The notes beneath the pieces are model-generated. The model saw nothing but the letters and a program-made list of their open reading frames with translations. It ran no database searches and had not been told where the DNA came from. Both the position numbers and the translations under genes were made by a program. 44,093 nt of DNA from an uncultured Reyranella sp. (GTDB lineage Bacteria > Pseudomonadota > Alphaproteobacteria > Reyranellales > Reyranellaceae), in the NCBI GenBank assembly GCA_937919085.1, contig CALFRN010000234.1:1-44093 (forward strand). The letters run 5' to 3'. Shown here one piece after another: positions 3 through 4,125 of the stretch (position 1 is the stretch's first letter; each line of letters starts with the position of its first letter).

Positions 3-188
3 CCGACGCGCGAGCAGCTTTTCGTGCTGTCGCGCGCGGTGCTGGGAGCGGTCCGCGCCGCCGTTCTGGAAGAGCAGCCTTTCCTTCGCAGCCGCAGTTT
101 CGAGGACGAACTCGTGCGGATGATCGTGGCCTGCCTCGGCGAGATCACGGCCGCGGCCGGTCCCGATCAGAGTCGAACCAGCGCTTGA
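3..188 (+). CDS. TetR/AcrR-family regulator, C-terminal fragment (cut by window edge)
   Basis: The reading frame is open from the window edge to a TGA at 186-188 and gives 61 residues. The visible part is amphipathic helix (VLGAVRAAVLEEQPFL, then FEDELVRMIVACLGEI), which resembles the last helices of the ligand-binding and dimerisation domain of TetR-family repressors. The DNA-binding N-terminus lies outside the window, so the family call rests on helix pattern only. Its last 44 bases overlap the 3' end of the convergent marR-type gene. It could be the tail of another all-helical regulator. Confidence 0.55.
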   Translation, partial: PTREQLFVLSRAVLGAVRAAVLEEQPFLRSRSFEDELVRMIVACLGEITAAAGPDQSRTSA

Positions 189-603
189 GTCGGTCGAGCA
201 AAGCGAACAGCGTGCGCTGATCCTTCTCCGGCCAGTCGGCGAAGGCGCGCGCCAGTCCCGGCATGAGCGCGGTGATGGCGGCACGATGCTTGGCAAGCCC
301 GGCCGGCGTGAGTGCGAGCAGCTTGGAGCGGCCGTCGCCAACGTTGGCGCGCTCGCGCAGCCAGCCCCTGGCCACCAGCTTCTGCACCGTCTTGGTGACG
401 CCCGGCTGCGGCTGCTGAAGTGCCCGGGCAACGCCGGTCACCGTCCGCGCCTCGTCCGGCCGGTGACTGAAGTGATTGAGCAGCACGAACTGCGGCATCT
501 GCAGGCCGAGCGGTTTCAGCGCCCGGTTGGCTTCGGTCGAGGCCAACTGGTCGATAATGCCGATCCAGTTGACGGTGCGGAAGGAAAGTGGCGGCTCGGT
601 CAC
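145..603 (-). CDS. MarR-family transcriptional regulator
   Basis: The 152-residue protein has the normal MarR length and layout: an N-terminal dimerisation helix, a winged helix-turn-helix (about residues 55-100, with VTGVARALQQPQPGVTKTVQKL as the recognition region and a GDGRSKLLALTPAG wing), and a C-terminal helix. The start is GTG at 603, and the string GTGA makes it overlap the TGA of the upstream nitroreductase-like gene, so the two are probably translationally coupled and transcribed together. The natural inference is that it represses this operon through the three palindromes at 1762-1828 and so controls itself. MarR dimers commonly bind such short inverted repeats and release them when they bind a phenolic or other small ligand. 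Confidence 0.9.
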   Translation of the reverse strand: MTEPPLSFRTVNWIGIIDQLASTEANRALKPLGLQMPQFVLLNHFSHRPDEARTVTGVARALQQPQPGVTKTVQKLVARGWLRERANVGDGRSKLLALTPAGLAKHRAAITALMPGLARAFADWPEKDQRTLFALLDRLKRWFDSDRDRPRP

Positions 604-1745
604 GCGGTCATGAAACTCGACAATGCCCGTCGGGGCGACGGGCCGGGATCGCCAGCATAACCCAGCCTGAAGAACATCTGCAGCGTGGCGTAGGCCGGCG
701 CGCCGGTTTGCCTGTGCATGGTCGCGCGCAAGTCGGCCATTTCAGGATACTCCTGCAGTGTCTGGCTGTGGGGCTGCAGCGCAACGCCCAGTGCCGTCGC
801 AGCGAGTTGCAGGCGCACGAAGGCACGACCGACGGCGATCTGCGTTTCGCGCGTGTTGTCGACACTGGTGATCCAACCGAAGGCGCGGGCGCTGGCATAG
901 CCCGCCATCACATAGTCGAGGCCACCCTGCCAGGCGAGCGTGCCCGGCGTCATCGCCTTTTCGGCCGTCATGGCGCCGGCGTGGCGCAGCGCCCAGATCA
1001 TCGGCCCCTTGAGCGAAATGCCGTCGCGGTTGGCGGCGATCTCCGCCGCACCGACGCGCACGACGTCGATGCTTTCCTTGTGGGTGCGCGGCAGGTTCAT
1101 TTCGAGTTCGGAGCCAGCTATGGCGAGTCCGCGCAGGCGGTCGACGCTCTCGGCATCGTCGACGAGGACAAGTGGCAAAGCCGACGCTGCGTGGCCGGTC
1201 AGCAGCGCTGCCTTGTGCGCGGGATCGAGAAGACGGGCTTCGAACCCGCCCTTCACCGTACGCCGCCGCGGCACCTGGGCGAACAGGGGATCGAGAGCGA
1301 TTCCGGGCTGCTTGGTGAAGGCGACGCGTGCGACCGGCTTGCCGGGACGCCACGGTCCATCGGGAAAGAGCGCAGCCTCGGTCCGGTAGCCTTCGGCGGC
1401 CGCGGCCATCGCGAGGATCTCCAGGAAGCAGCCATGGCCGATCAGGATCTGGCGCGAGTAGGGATCGGTCTGGGGCAGCAGCCGCCCGGTATCGACGTGA
1501 AGCACGATGGTATCGGGCCGGGAGAGGTCGACCGCCCAAGACTGGAGATTGTGCGGGTTGGGCGCAAGGAGTGCCCAGGCCAACGCCCGGCGTCGCGGGT
1601 CCGTCTCGGCCGGATCGGGTCCGCTCCAACCCTCAATGGCTGTCGACGGCATGGCATCAAGGCGCGGCACGGCGACCGCGGCGCCAGCCGCCACCACCAC
1701 GCCCCCGCCCAGCACCCTGAGAAACGTTCTTCGCGGAAAAGCCAT
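600..1745 (-). CDS. Tat-exported nitroreductase-family (Acg-like) flavoprotein
   Basis: The 381-residue protein begins with a twin-arginine signal (FPRRTFLRVLGGG, then a hydrophobic stretch ending AVAVPRLDA), so it is probably exported folded with its cofactor. The mature part has the layout of nitroreductase-like proteins of the Acg/Rv3131 type: APNPHNLQSWAVDL near the N-terminus resembles the flavin-binding 'S.HN.QPW' segment, and the C-terminal part (QIAVGRAFVRLQLAATALGVALQPHSQ) resembles the second nitroreductase half. The ATG at 1745 is preferred over one 20 codons upstream because GGAGG precedes it by a normal distance and the Tat motif then falls at residues 5-6. It is coupled by GTGA overlap to the MarR gene downstream. 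The substrate is unknown; quinones or nitro compounds would fit the family. Confidence 0.78.
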   Translation of the reverse strand: MAFPRRTFLRVLGGGVVVAAGAAVAVPRLDAMPSTAIEGWSGPDPAETDPRRRALAWALLAPNPHNLQSWAVDLSRPDTIVLHVDTGRLLPQTDPYSRQILIGHGCFLEILAMAAAAEGYRTEAALFPDGPWRPGKPVARVAFTKQPGIALDPLFAQVPRRRTVKGGFEARLLDPAHKAALLTGHAASALPLVLVDDAESVDRLRGLAIAGSELEMNLPRTHKESIDVVRVGAAEIAANRDGISLKGPMIWALRHAGAMTAEKAMTPGTLAWQGGLDYVMAGYASARAFGWITSVDNTRETQIAVGRAFVRLQLAATALGVALQPHSQTLQEYPEMADLRATMHRQTGAPAYATLQMFFRLGYAGDPGPSPRRALSSFMTA

Positions 1746-1761
1746 CGGGACCTCCATAGTT

Positions 1762-1828
1762 ATTCCATGGAATGGATACATATTCCTTGGAATATTAATA
1801 GGCAAGCAGAAACATTCCTTAGAATGTT
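1762..1828 (-). promoter_or_regulatory. Three tandem palindromic operators, probably for the MarR regulator
   Basis: Three copies of one 12-base palindrome lie in the 85-base gap before the nitroreductase-like gene: ATTCCATGGAAT at 1762-1773 (perfect), ATTCCTTGGAAT at 1782-1793, and ATTCCTTAGAAT at 1814-1825, the last extended to AACATTC..GAATGTT (1811-1828). Their centres are 20 and 32 bases apart, close to two and three helical turns, so bound dimers would sit on one face of the helix. Assigning them to the MarR protein encoded at the end of this operon is an inference from position. Confidence 0.75.
1777..1805 (-). promoter_or_regulatory. Predicted sigma-70-type promoter of the nitroreductase-marR operon
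   Basis: Read on the minus strand, TTGCCT (1805-1800) and TATGTA (1782-1777) are separated by 17 bases. The middle palindrome fills the spacer, the promoter-proximal one covers the expected transcription start, and the distal one abuts the -35 element. A leader of about 25 bases with GGAGG then precedes the ATG at 1745. The hexamers are imperfect, but their placement relative to the operators supports the call. Confidence 0.5.
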
Positions 1829-1830
1829 AC

Positions 1831-2490
1831 CTAGACCGCATGGGGCAACTGCACCGACAGCAGGACGCCGAATTCGCGGGCGAGATCGCAGCTCACGCGG
1901 GCATGGACCTTGCCCTGCTTGTCGAAGAAGCGACCGGCGGGCGTTACCGGGAAAACGCCCTCGTGCCAGACGCCGGGATGAATGTAGATGCCGAAGCTGC
2001 CATCGGACCACAGGGCCACGAACGCCTCGGGTTCGAGATCGTCGCCAGGCATGGCCACCGGCACGACGAAGGGCTGGCGGTCGAGCGGCCAGAAGAGCTG
2101 GCCGCCGTCGGGATGGTAGTTGCAGTGCCACAGCAGCACGCGATCCTGGGACAGCGCCACGCCCGGCGCGGCCGTTTCGGGCAGCTCGCGGAAACCGATG
2201 ACGTAGTGGCCGCCGACGGCCTCGTTGCGGCCGATCAACTGATTGCCCCGCCATTCGCAGGCGAAGACGCCCTCGGTCGTGCCGCCTTCAATGCCGGTTC
2301 CGGCGTCGAGCCGGCGCGAACCGGTGAGCGGCCAGGGCACGATCTCGATCTTGTGACGCTGGGGATCGCGCACGATCTCGCCATAGCCCTCGATCGACTC
2401 GTGATCGGCGCGGATCAGCGGGACGTCGAGAAGCCTGAGGTCCGGCGGAATATCTGGATTGAGATAGTCGAAGACGACGCCGTCGCTCAT
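1831..2490 (-). CDS. Ureidoglycolate lyase (AllA)-like protein
   Basis: The 219-residue protein carries segments matching the AllA/ureidoglycolate lyase cupin family: ADHESIEGYGEIV near residue 30 (family: F..YGDVI), HPDGGQLFWPL near residue 128 (family: H..G.Q.F.P), and IYIHPGVWHEGVFPV near residue 175 (family: YH.G.WHHP). The family releases urea from ureidoglycolate during purine use, but several subfamilies have other or unknown substrates, and this protein is longer than the roughly 160-residue E. coli enzyme, mainly in its N-terminal half. It starts 22 bases after the lysyl-tRNA synthetase gene on the same strand, so co-transcription is likely. No other allantoin genes are visible nearby, which leaves its true substrate open. 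Confidence 0.7.
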   Translation of the reverse strand: MSDGVVFDYLNPDIPPDLRLLDVPLIRADHESIEGYGEIVRDPQRHKIEIVPWPLTGSRRLDAGTGIEGGTTEGVFACEWRGNQLIGRNEAVGGHYVIGFRELPETAAPGVALSQDRVLLWHCNYHPDGGQLFWPLDRQPFVVPVAMPGDDLEPEAFVALWSDGSFGIYIHPGVWHEGVFPVTPAGRFFDKQGKVHARVSCDLAREFGVLLSVQLPHAV

Positions 2491-2511: not shown

Positions 2512-4125
2512 TCAGGCCGCCTTGCCCAAATCCTCGCCCGCCAGCGCACGCTCGATCAGACGCACGACATTGTCGCGACCGAACAGCTTGATGAACGCAC
2601 CCATGCGCGGCCCCTGCTCGCTGCCCAGCAGCACCTCGTAGAGTGCCTTGAACCACTGGCGCAGCTCCTCCTTGGCGAAGTGGCGCTTACCAGCCTCGTA
2701 GACCTCGTTCTGGATGAACTCCGCGCTCTCGCTTTCCGGAATACCGCGAAGCGTCTCGGCCAGATCGGCAAGCGCGGCGCGTTCCTTGCCCGTGGGCAGG
2801 CGGAACTGCTTCGTCGACTTCACGAAATCCTGGTAGTAGGCGACGGCGCCTGACAGCAGCCGGTCGAGATAGGGCGCGGTCTCCGGCGTCGCGCCCGGCA
2901 CGTAGCGGCGCAGGTACTGCCACAACACGTCCTTGTCTTCGGTGTTCGCCACACTCGCCAGATTGAGCAGCATGCCGAAGTTGATGCCGGCGGCCGAGTT
3001 GGCCGGCATTTGGCCGTCGTGAATGTGGAACGCCGGGTTGTCGGTGATTTTGGCGGCCTCGTCCTTCGGCAGCTTCTCGACGAACGCAAGATATTCGTCG
3101 ATGGCGCGCGGGATGACGTCGAAAAACAGCCGCTTCGCCCGCCGCGGCGCCTGGTACATATAGAGGGCCAGCGATTCGGGCGGCGCATAACGCAGCCATT
3201 CCTCGACCGAGAGCCCGTTGCCTTTGGACTTGGAGATCTTCTTGCCTTCCTCGTCGAGGAAGAGTTCGTAGTTGAATCCCTCTGGCGGCTTACCTCCCAG
3301 TATCCGCACGATCTTGGCGCTCAACTCGGCCGAGGAGATGAGATCCTTGCCATACATCTCGTAGTCGACGTCGAGCGCGAACCAGCGGCCGGCCCAATCG
3401 GCTTTCCACTGCAGCTTGACGTTGCCGCCGGTGACCGGCGTCTCGACCAGGGAGCCGTCCTCGTCGCGATAGACGATGGTGCCGGCATCGACGTCGGTCT
3501 TGACGACGGGTACCTGCAGCACTCGGCCGGTCTTGGGACTGATCGGCAGGAAGATCGAATAGGTCTGCTGCCGTTCCTCGCCCAGGGTCGGCAGCATCAC
3601 CGCCTGGACTTCGTCGTAGTGCCGCAACATGGCCAGCAGCATGGGATCGAAGCGACCCGACTTGTACCAATCGGTCGCCGATTGGAATTCGTACTCGAAA
3701 CCGAAGGAATCGAGGAAGGCGCGCAGGCGGGCATTGTTGGCGGCACCGAAACTCGGATGTTCGTTGCTGAACGGGTCGGGCACGGCCGTCAGCGGCTTAC
3801 CGAGATGGGCGGCCAGCATCTCCTTGTTCGGCACGTTGTCCGGCACCTTGCGCAGGCCGTCCATATCGTCGGAGAAACAGAATAGCCGGGTCGGCACATC
3901 GCACAGGTGACGAAACGCCTGGCGGACCATGGTCGTGCGCACGACTTCGCCGAAGGTGCCGATATGCGGCAGGCCCGAGGGGCCGTAGCCGGTCTCGAAC
4001 AGCACGTAGCCCTTCCCTGGGCCCTCGCCCGGCGGTTTGCCGCCGATGCGCGCGACAATCTTGCGGGCTTCTTCAAAGGGCCACGCGCGCGCGGCTTCGG
4101 CAAGGGAACGATCAATCAGGGACAT
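2512..4125 (-). CDS. lysS: Lysine--tRNA ligase, class I
   Basis: The 537-residue protein is a class I (archaeal and alphaproteobacterial type) lysyl-tRNA synthetase, which charges tRNA-Lys in the cytoplasm. It shows the HIGH-type motif as [10 protein letters not shown] near residue 52 and the KMSKS-type motif as [12 protein letters not shown] near residue 293, with a long helical anticodon-binding C-terminus. Length is normal for the family. The start codon, followed by [19 protein letters not shown], fits homologues. This enzyme type (sometimes named lysK) replaces the class II form in most alphaproteobacteria, which supports the taxonomic reading of the window. It is divergent from the MFS gene at 4218 and heads the minus-strand set that continues into the AllA-like gene. 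Confidence 0.95.

Follow-up and report, generated by a model that had tools for sequence, protein, structure and literature searches.

The 85-bp gap in front of the acg gene of an uncultured Reyranella sp. contains three palindromes. In view of their conservation, their co-occurrence with marR and the co-variation of their letters with the recognition helix, these palindromes are very probably operators of the MarR-family protein whose gene comes last in the operon; this protein would thereby repress acg-marR, its own transcription unit. This had been put forward in a sequence-only reading of the same DNA, and that part of the proposal stood. "The window" refers throughout to the whole stretch of 44,093 nucleotides that was analyzed. 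The gap occupies positions 1746–1830, between acg and a ureidoglycolate-lyase-like gene, and the minus-strand gene order is lysS, ureidoglycolate-lyase-like gene, gap, acg and marR (Table 1). The palindromes are of the type ATTCC(NN)GGAAT and start at positions 1762, 1782 and 1814, giving start-to-start distances of 20 and 32. Direct reading bore out the earlier description of these spacings around a 17-spaced promoter, as well as the overlap of the two genes by GTGA, the four bases at 600–603 being common to the end of acg and the start of marR. The term "helically phased", used in the same description, is fair wording, as the spacings amount to about two and three turns; binding may be cooperative. 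The promoter hexamers are weak, with 4/6 (−35-like) and 3/6 (−10-like) matches by our own count, the −10 region is A/T-rich in relatives, and the ATG of acg at 1745 lies downstream of this putative minus-strand promoter. A simple promoter and terminator scan made no call for the region, and a repeat search of positions 1600–1900 at default settings detected no repeat.

Table 1. Genes and candidate regulatory features at the acg-marR locus of the window
Feature	Position	Strand	Description
lysS	2512-4125	-	
Ureidoglycolate-lyase-like gene	1831-2490	-	stop codon at 1831-1833
O3	1814-1825	read on +	ATTCCTTAGAAT; upstream of -35
-35-like TTGCCT	1800-1805	-	read directly
O2	1782-1793	read on +	ATTCCTTGGAAT; inside -35/-10 spacer, touches -10
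-10-like TATGTA	1777-1782	-	17-base spacer (1783-1799) to -35
O1	1762-1773	read on +	ATTCCATGGAAT; perfect palindrome, 3' of -10, start-site region
Shine-Dalgarno-like GGAGG	1751-1755	-	read directly
acg	600-1745	-	381 aa; Acg/Rv3131-family FMN-binding oxidoreductase; Tat-like leader (MAFPRRTFLRVLGGG)
marR	145-603	-	152 aa; MarR-family regulator; overlaps acg

A loose count of motif matches within the window, with up to two mismatches allowed, gave 8 against 3.35 expected and is by itself unimpressive as evidence against chance. The stricter pattern ATTCYNNRGAAT has only 13 occurrences in the whole genome of 4.9 Mb, three of which fall inside one 64-bp stretch, and the palindrome cluster was confirmed as real and beyond chance. 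None of the other 10 genomic sites has a neighboring copy within 60 bp, i.e. there is no second cluster in the window's own genome. The two-base form was used for these counts, as a genome pattern with three central bases (ATTCCNNNGGAAT) misses the window's sites. A wider regulon in this genome was considered and dropped, since the remaining sites are single and eight of the 10 fall in open reading frames 100 aa or longer in one of the frames (L085 and L087 lie outside). What emerges is apparently a regulon of one operon, serving a widespread enzyme family whose function is uncertain, with the operator given in many species.

The acg product scored 233 bits against NF047509 (cut-off 199), which places it in the Acg/Rv3131 family, and 24.4 bits against the Pfam Nitroreductase model PF00881, just over the cut-off of 23.5; its sole PDB match was 2ymv (E 2.7e-6). 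Because of the Tat-like leader at its start, Acg may act outside the cytoplasm. A strict RR leader pattern was found in 59 of 85 acg rows; the window has RR, and 21 of the 26 misses, mostly from Reyranella relatives, have RK or KR, which is unusual for a Tat signal. The acg stop codon falls within ATGA or GTGA in 42 of the 75 marR-bearing rows. At one locus (L006, G028:C542) the acg match is in two pieces with residues about 288–326 absent, owing to an internal deletion or an assembly fault. The MarR protein scored 47.9 bits against the winged-helix model PF12802 (cut-off 27), and its AlphaFold model (pLDDT 95.5) displayed the MarR fold, with helices at residues 6–32, 36–46, 55–62, 66–78, 100–120 and 126–146 and a wing at 82–98. 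Among the Foldseek matches listed were MftR, MarR, MepR, MexR, HpaR, SlyA, HcaR and other regulators. As judged by sequence only, the protein also has a palindromic operator at its own promoter, in keeping with the MarR family. The window MarR contains no cysteine, which argues against a hydroperoxide-oxidation switch of the OhrR/EstR type, and a cysteine redox switch was dropped as a candidate for this reason; any Cys was found in 5 of 46 MarRs of class A (the ATTCC class, see below; TTTCC type counted in).

In the switch that we infer, each palindrome would be occupied by one MarR dimer, and the dimers would lie on much the same face of the double helix. Since O2 fills the −35/−10 spacer, O1 spans the start region and O3 is just upstream of the −35, the occupied sites would exclude RNA polymerase from the acg-marR promoter. 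A ligand would free MarR from the DNA, upon which acg and marR would be made together, and newly made MarR would then close the promoter again. The sequence-only reading suggested an inducer related to the nitroreductase substrate; this is guesswork, because nitroreductase activity of the Acg/Rv3131 family is disputed (PMC11841060, in excerpt).

With the MarR protein as query, 41 loci were retrieved, most of them from records titled Reyranella or uncultured Alphaproteobacteria. In 40 of them acg is directly upstream of marR, and the remaining one (L043) begins at a contig end, without acg. Upstream DNA was readable in 38 of the 40, with L009 and L020 cut inside acg. One check suggested in the sequence-only reading was for conservation of the motif in relatives that keep the gene pair, and it came out in favor of the proposal: in all 38 readable loci the ATTCC-type motif is present two or more times, in front of acg in 33 and in front of a different, operon-heading gene in 5, a copy being defined by at least 8 of 10 arm letters, which admits TTTCC arms and weak copies (one in L030). 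In the five longer operons (L036, L037, L039, L042 and L044), an extra gene heads acg-marR, and a palindrome pair, 21 apart, precedes this heading gene in every case; the gene belongs to DUF4386, a membrane-protein-like family, in L042 and L044, the two of the five that were scanned. Alignment of 41 class-A rows, including the window and class-wide finds, showed a pair spacing of 20 in 30 rows, 21 in 10 and 23 in one, with O1 aligning with the gene-proximal copy in the 40 other rows. A third site was observed in 20 of the 41, located 30–34 bp upstream of the O2 position, the commonest distances being 33 (11 rows) and 32 (6 rows). Since the pair spacing of 20–21 is nearly constant and the third site occurs in roughly one row out of two, the conserved core is, as judged from this alignment, the O1–O2 pair, about two helical turns apart, and the triple arrangement is one version of it. 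The "sharp, redundant" off-state that had been envisaged is a conjecture, the core having only two copies. Of 39 class-A rows, 23 have a TTG, possibly the −35, 18 bp before the center of O2 (the first operator), and in 16 it is elsewhere or absent; in the other classes it lies 14–16 bp before the first-operator center in 17 of 21 rows. At four loci (L007, L008, L014 and L028) about 1.7–1.8 kb separates the ureidoglycolate-lyase-like gene from acg, and the O3–O2 distance is unchanged.

Within the order of the window's genome, 35 of 76 genomes have both acg and marR, and the other 41 have neither. This distribution is patchy, yet the two genes are never apart, which suggests that they may have been lost or transferred jointly. 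The tandem motif was found in 32 of the 35 genomes with marR versus none of the 41 without it (Fisher test, 2.4e-18, kinship ignored), and by coordinates it immediately precedes acg in 31 of these 32, the copy in G003 being near a contig end. The three genomes missed have degenerate copies (G006 and G074) or are cut by a contig end (G068). Because acg and marR never part there, the order cannot separate an acg-linked from a marR-linked motif. A blind search for the tandem pattern in 385 alphaproteobacterial genomes matched 12, nine of them in front of acg, i.e. in the window's own genome, in one of its family and in seven others; in the seven, marR is next after acg in six, and a contig end follows in the seventh. 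The remaining three matches were on one strand only, and the stretch read there contains neither acg nor marR. An acg-like gene is present in 49 of the 385 genomes of the class, and all 49 loci were read: nine are without a MarR-like frame in the 3.1–4.2 kb read (hmmsearch in six frames, with L184 as the positive control), G139 is cut off by a contig edge, and marR lies behind acg in the others. In L129 (G082:C87) the marR match is in two pieces in different frames, the result of a frameshift or a sequencing error, and the operator pair is present. A tandem palindrome beating 100 shuffles was found at none of the nine marR-less acg loci versus 60 of the 75 rows with marR, the marR-less acg genes being distant (28–43% identity) and hence an imperfect control. 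The near-misses among the marR-less loci were L237 (p 0.04) and L236 (p 0.06); rows L027, L168 and L171 were excluded as duplicate MarR, and L128, at a contig end, stands outside the marR counts. The 15 marR-bearing rows that failed comprise L007, where the sites are present and were missed by the scorer; the five longer operons; L189, L191, L193, L196 and L240, in which two copies are visible by eye only; L175, L183 and L242, each with a single palindrome; and L232, with a single palindrome of another type.

Distant acg-marR operons carry the same kind of pair written in other letters: TTTCC-GGAAA in L038 and L172, GTTTAAC-GTTAAAC with 17 MarRs, a GATATC-centered type with seven, and two single-case types, TTAGTTAGCTAACTAA and the TAGTAAGG type. 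Among the 60 pairs detected in all, 34 are spaced by 20, 18 by 21 and eight by 19 or 22–25. The letters vary with MarR positions 66, 67 and 71, which lie within the predicted helix 66–78, at the place of the recognition helix in the AlphaFold model. These positions are Q-P-K in 44/44 members of class A (ATTCC), K/R-G-N in 17/17 of class B (GTTTAAC), and K/R/N, T/A and H/N in 7/7 of class C (GATATC), where the labels were set by eye for the five longer-operon loci, L007, L175 and L242 (A), L189, L193, L196 and L240 (B), L191 (C), and L183 and L232 ("other"), and L192 (GTAAGG type) was given a class of its own. L242, the ATTCC-type member that diverges most (33% identity), has Q66, P67, T70 and K71 together with one ATATTCCATGGAATAT palindrome. 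On a MarR tree built without the recognition-helix columns, a quick tree of few columns, the operator classes are distributed near-clade-wise (7 changes, minimum 6); since classes follow clades, the co-variation of operator and helix is in part due to shared ancestry and is not phylogeny-free. On balance we lean toward the view that acg-marR of Alphaproteobacteria constitutes a natural re-coding series, in which the geometry (two operators, usually two turns of the helix apart, with the first between −35 and −10) would be kept while the letters (ATTCC, TTTCC, GTTTAAC, GATATCG, GTAAGG and TTAGTTAGC) would be rewritten several times, together with a handful of residues where the recognition helix begins. 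Such a series, if true, could reveal a code from which the specificity of MarR proteins can be read. The clade-specific regulator–operator pairs are ready-made material for testing how recognition helices read DNA, and they also suit tests of joint change in a local repressor and its operator with control being kept.

A conserved motif taken alone implies only that some palindrome-reading factor exists, and the palindromes might be operators of another regulator encoded elsewhere, the adjacent MarR being incidental. We regard this as improbable given the confinement of the tandem motif in the order to genomes with marR, the lack of a significant tandem palindrome at the nine marR-less acg genes, and the variation of the operator letters with the recognition helix of the very MarR encoded next to them. 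It is a shade less probable still that O3, and perhaps the other palindromes, is an RNA element acting as terminator of the upstream ureidoglycolate-lyase-like gene and not an operator. O3 is indeed a short inverted repeat located a few bases past the stop codon of that gene, and on the minus strand a few T come next; however, its stem is A/T-rich and no terminator was called by the scan. Moreover, an O3–O2 distance of 32–33 bp is found in L007, L008, L014, L028, L033 and L035, where the lyase-like gene is absent or about 1.7 kb off, and in L029, where the gap to this gene is longer, and the letters of O3 are those of the operators, with T2, C4, G9, A11 and T12 invariant in 20/20.

MarR could also be an activator or a dual regulator working from O3, with O1 and O2 as autorepression sites, and the weak −35 and −10 and the location of O3 upstream of the −35 in 20 of the 41 class-A rows would suit such a role. 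Against it, the pair that is generally kept occupies the spacer and the start region, where a bound protein normally blocks polymerase, and classes B and C show the same pair behind a TTG-type −35; we give activation from O3 as little credence as the terminator. The preferred reading remains that MarR would repress acg-marR from these palindromes.

Among the open-licence PMC papers listed by literature searches, none dealt with an acg-marR system, its operator letters or MarR in Reyranella. The mycobacterial proteins Acg (Rv2032) and Rv3131 (PDB 2ymv; PMC11841060) belong to the same enzyme family as the window acg product; in the excerpts of PMC11841060 the mycobacterial acg and Rv3131 genes are under DosR, with a linked MarR unmentioned, whereas the window acg is linked to marR. 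According to excerpts of PMC5201249, OhrR of Agrobacterium tumefaciens is likewise a local MarR-family repressor with a palindromic operator, but it has a single operator (TACAATT-AATTGTA) and senses through cysteine, in contrast to the two or three operators and the cysteine-free MarR described here. EstR of the same species, in the same excerpts, is likewise a MarR repressor from an alphaproteobacterium and acts on the neighboring enzyme gene, estC, and on itself; two palindromes, one of them on the −10, have been footprinted over promoter elements, and the predicted window operators also lie over the promoter. EstR/estC differs in having two promoters in the estR–estC intergenic region and the operator GTTATCGCGATAAC, and EstR senses hydroperoxide via Cys16, a residue type that the window MarR does not contain. 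MftR of Burkholderia thailandensis (PDB 8ylf/8ylg), which has the same winged-helix MarR fold and was solved on operator DNA, is the best sequence match of the window MarR and, as 8ylg, its best fold match among the matches listed (28% identical over the fold alignment). Judged from sequence, the system thus belongs to a familiar kind, the local MarR repressor that controls its own transcription, here with multiple operators, and what it adds is the probable natural re-coding series with its clear evolutionary record.
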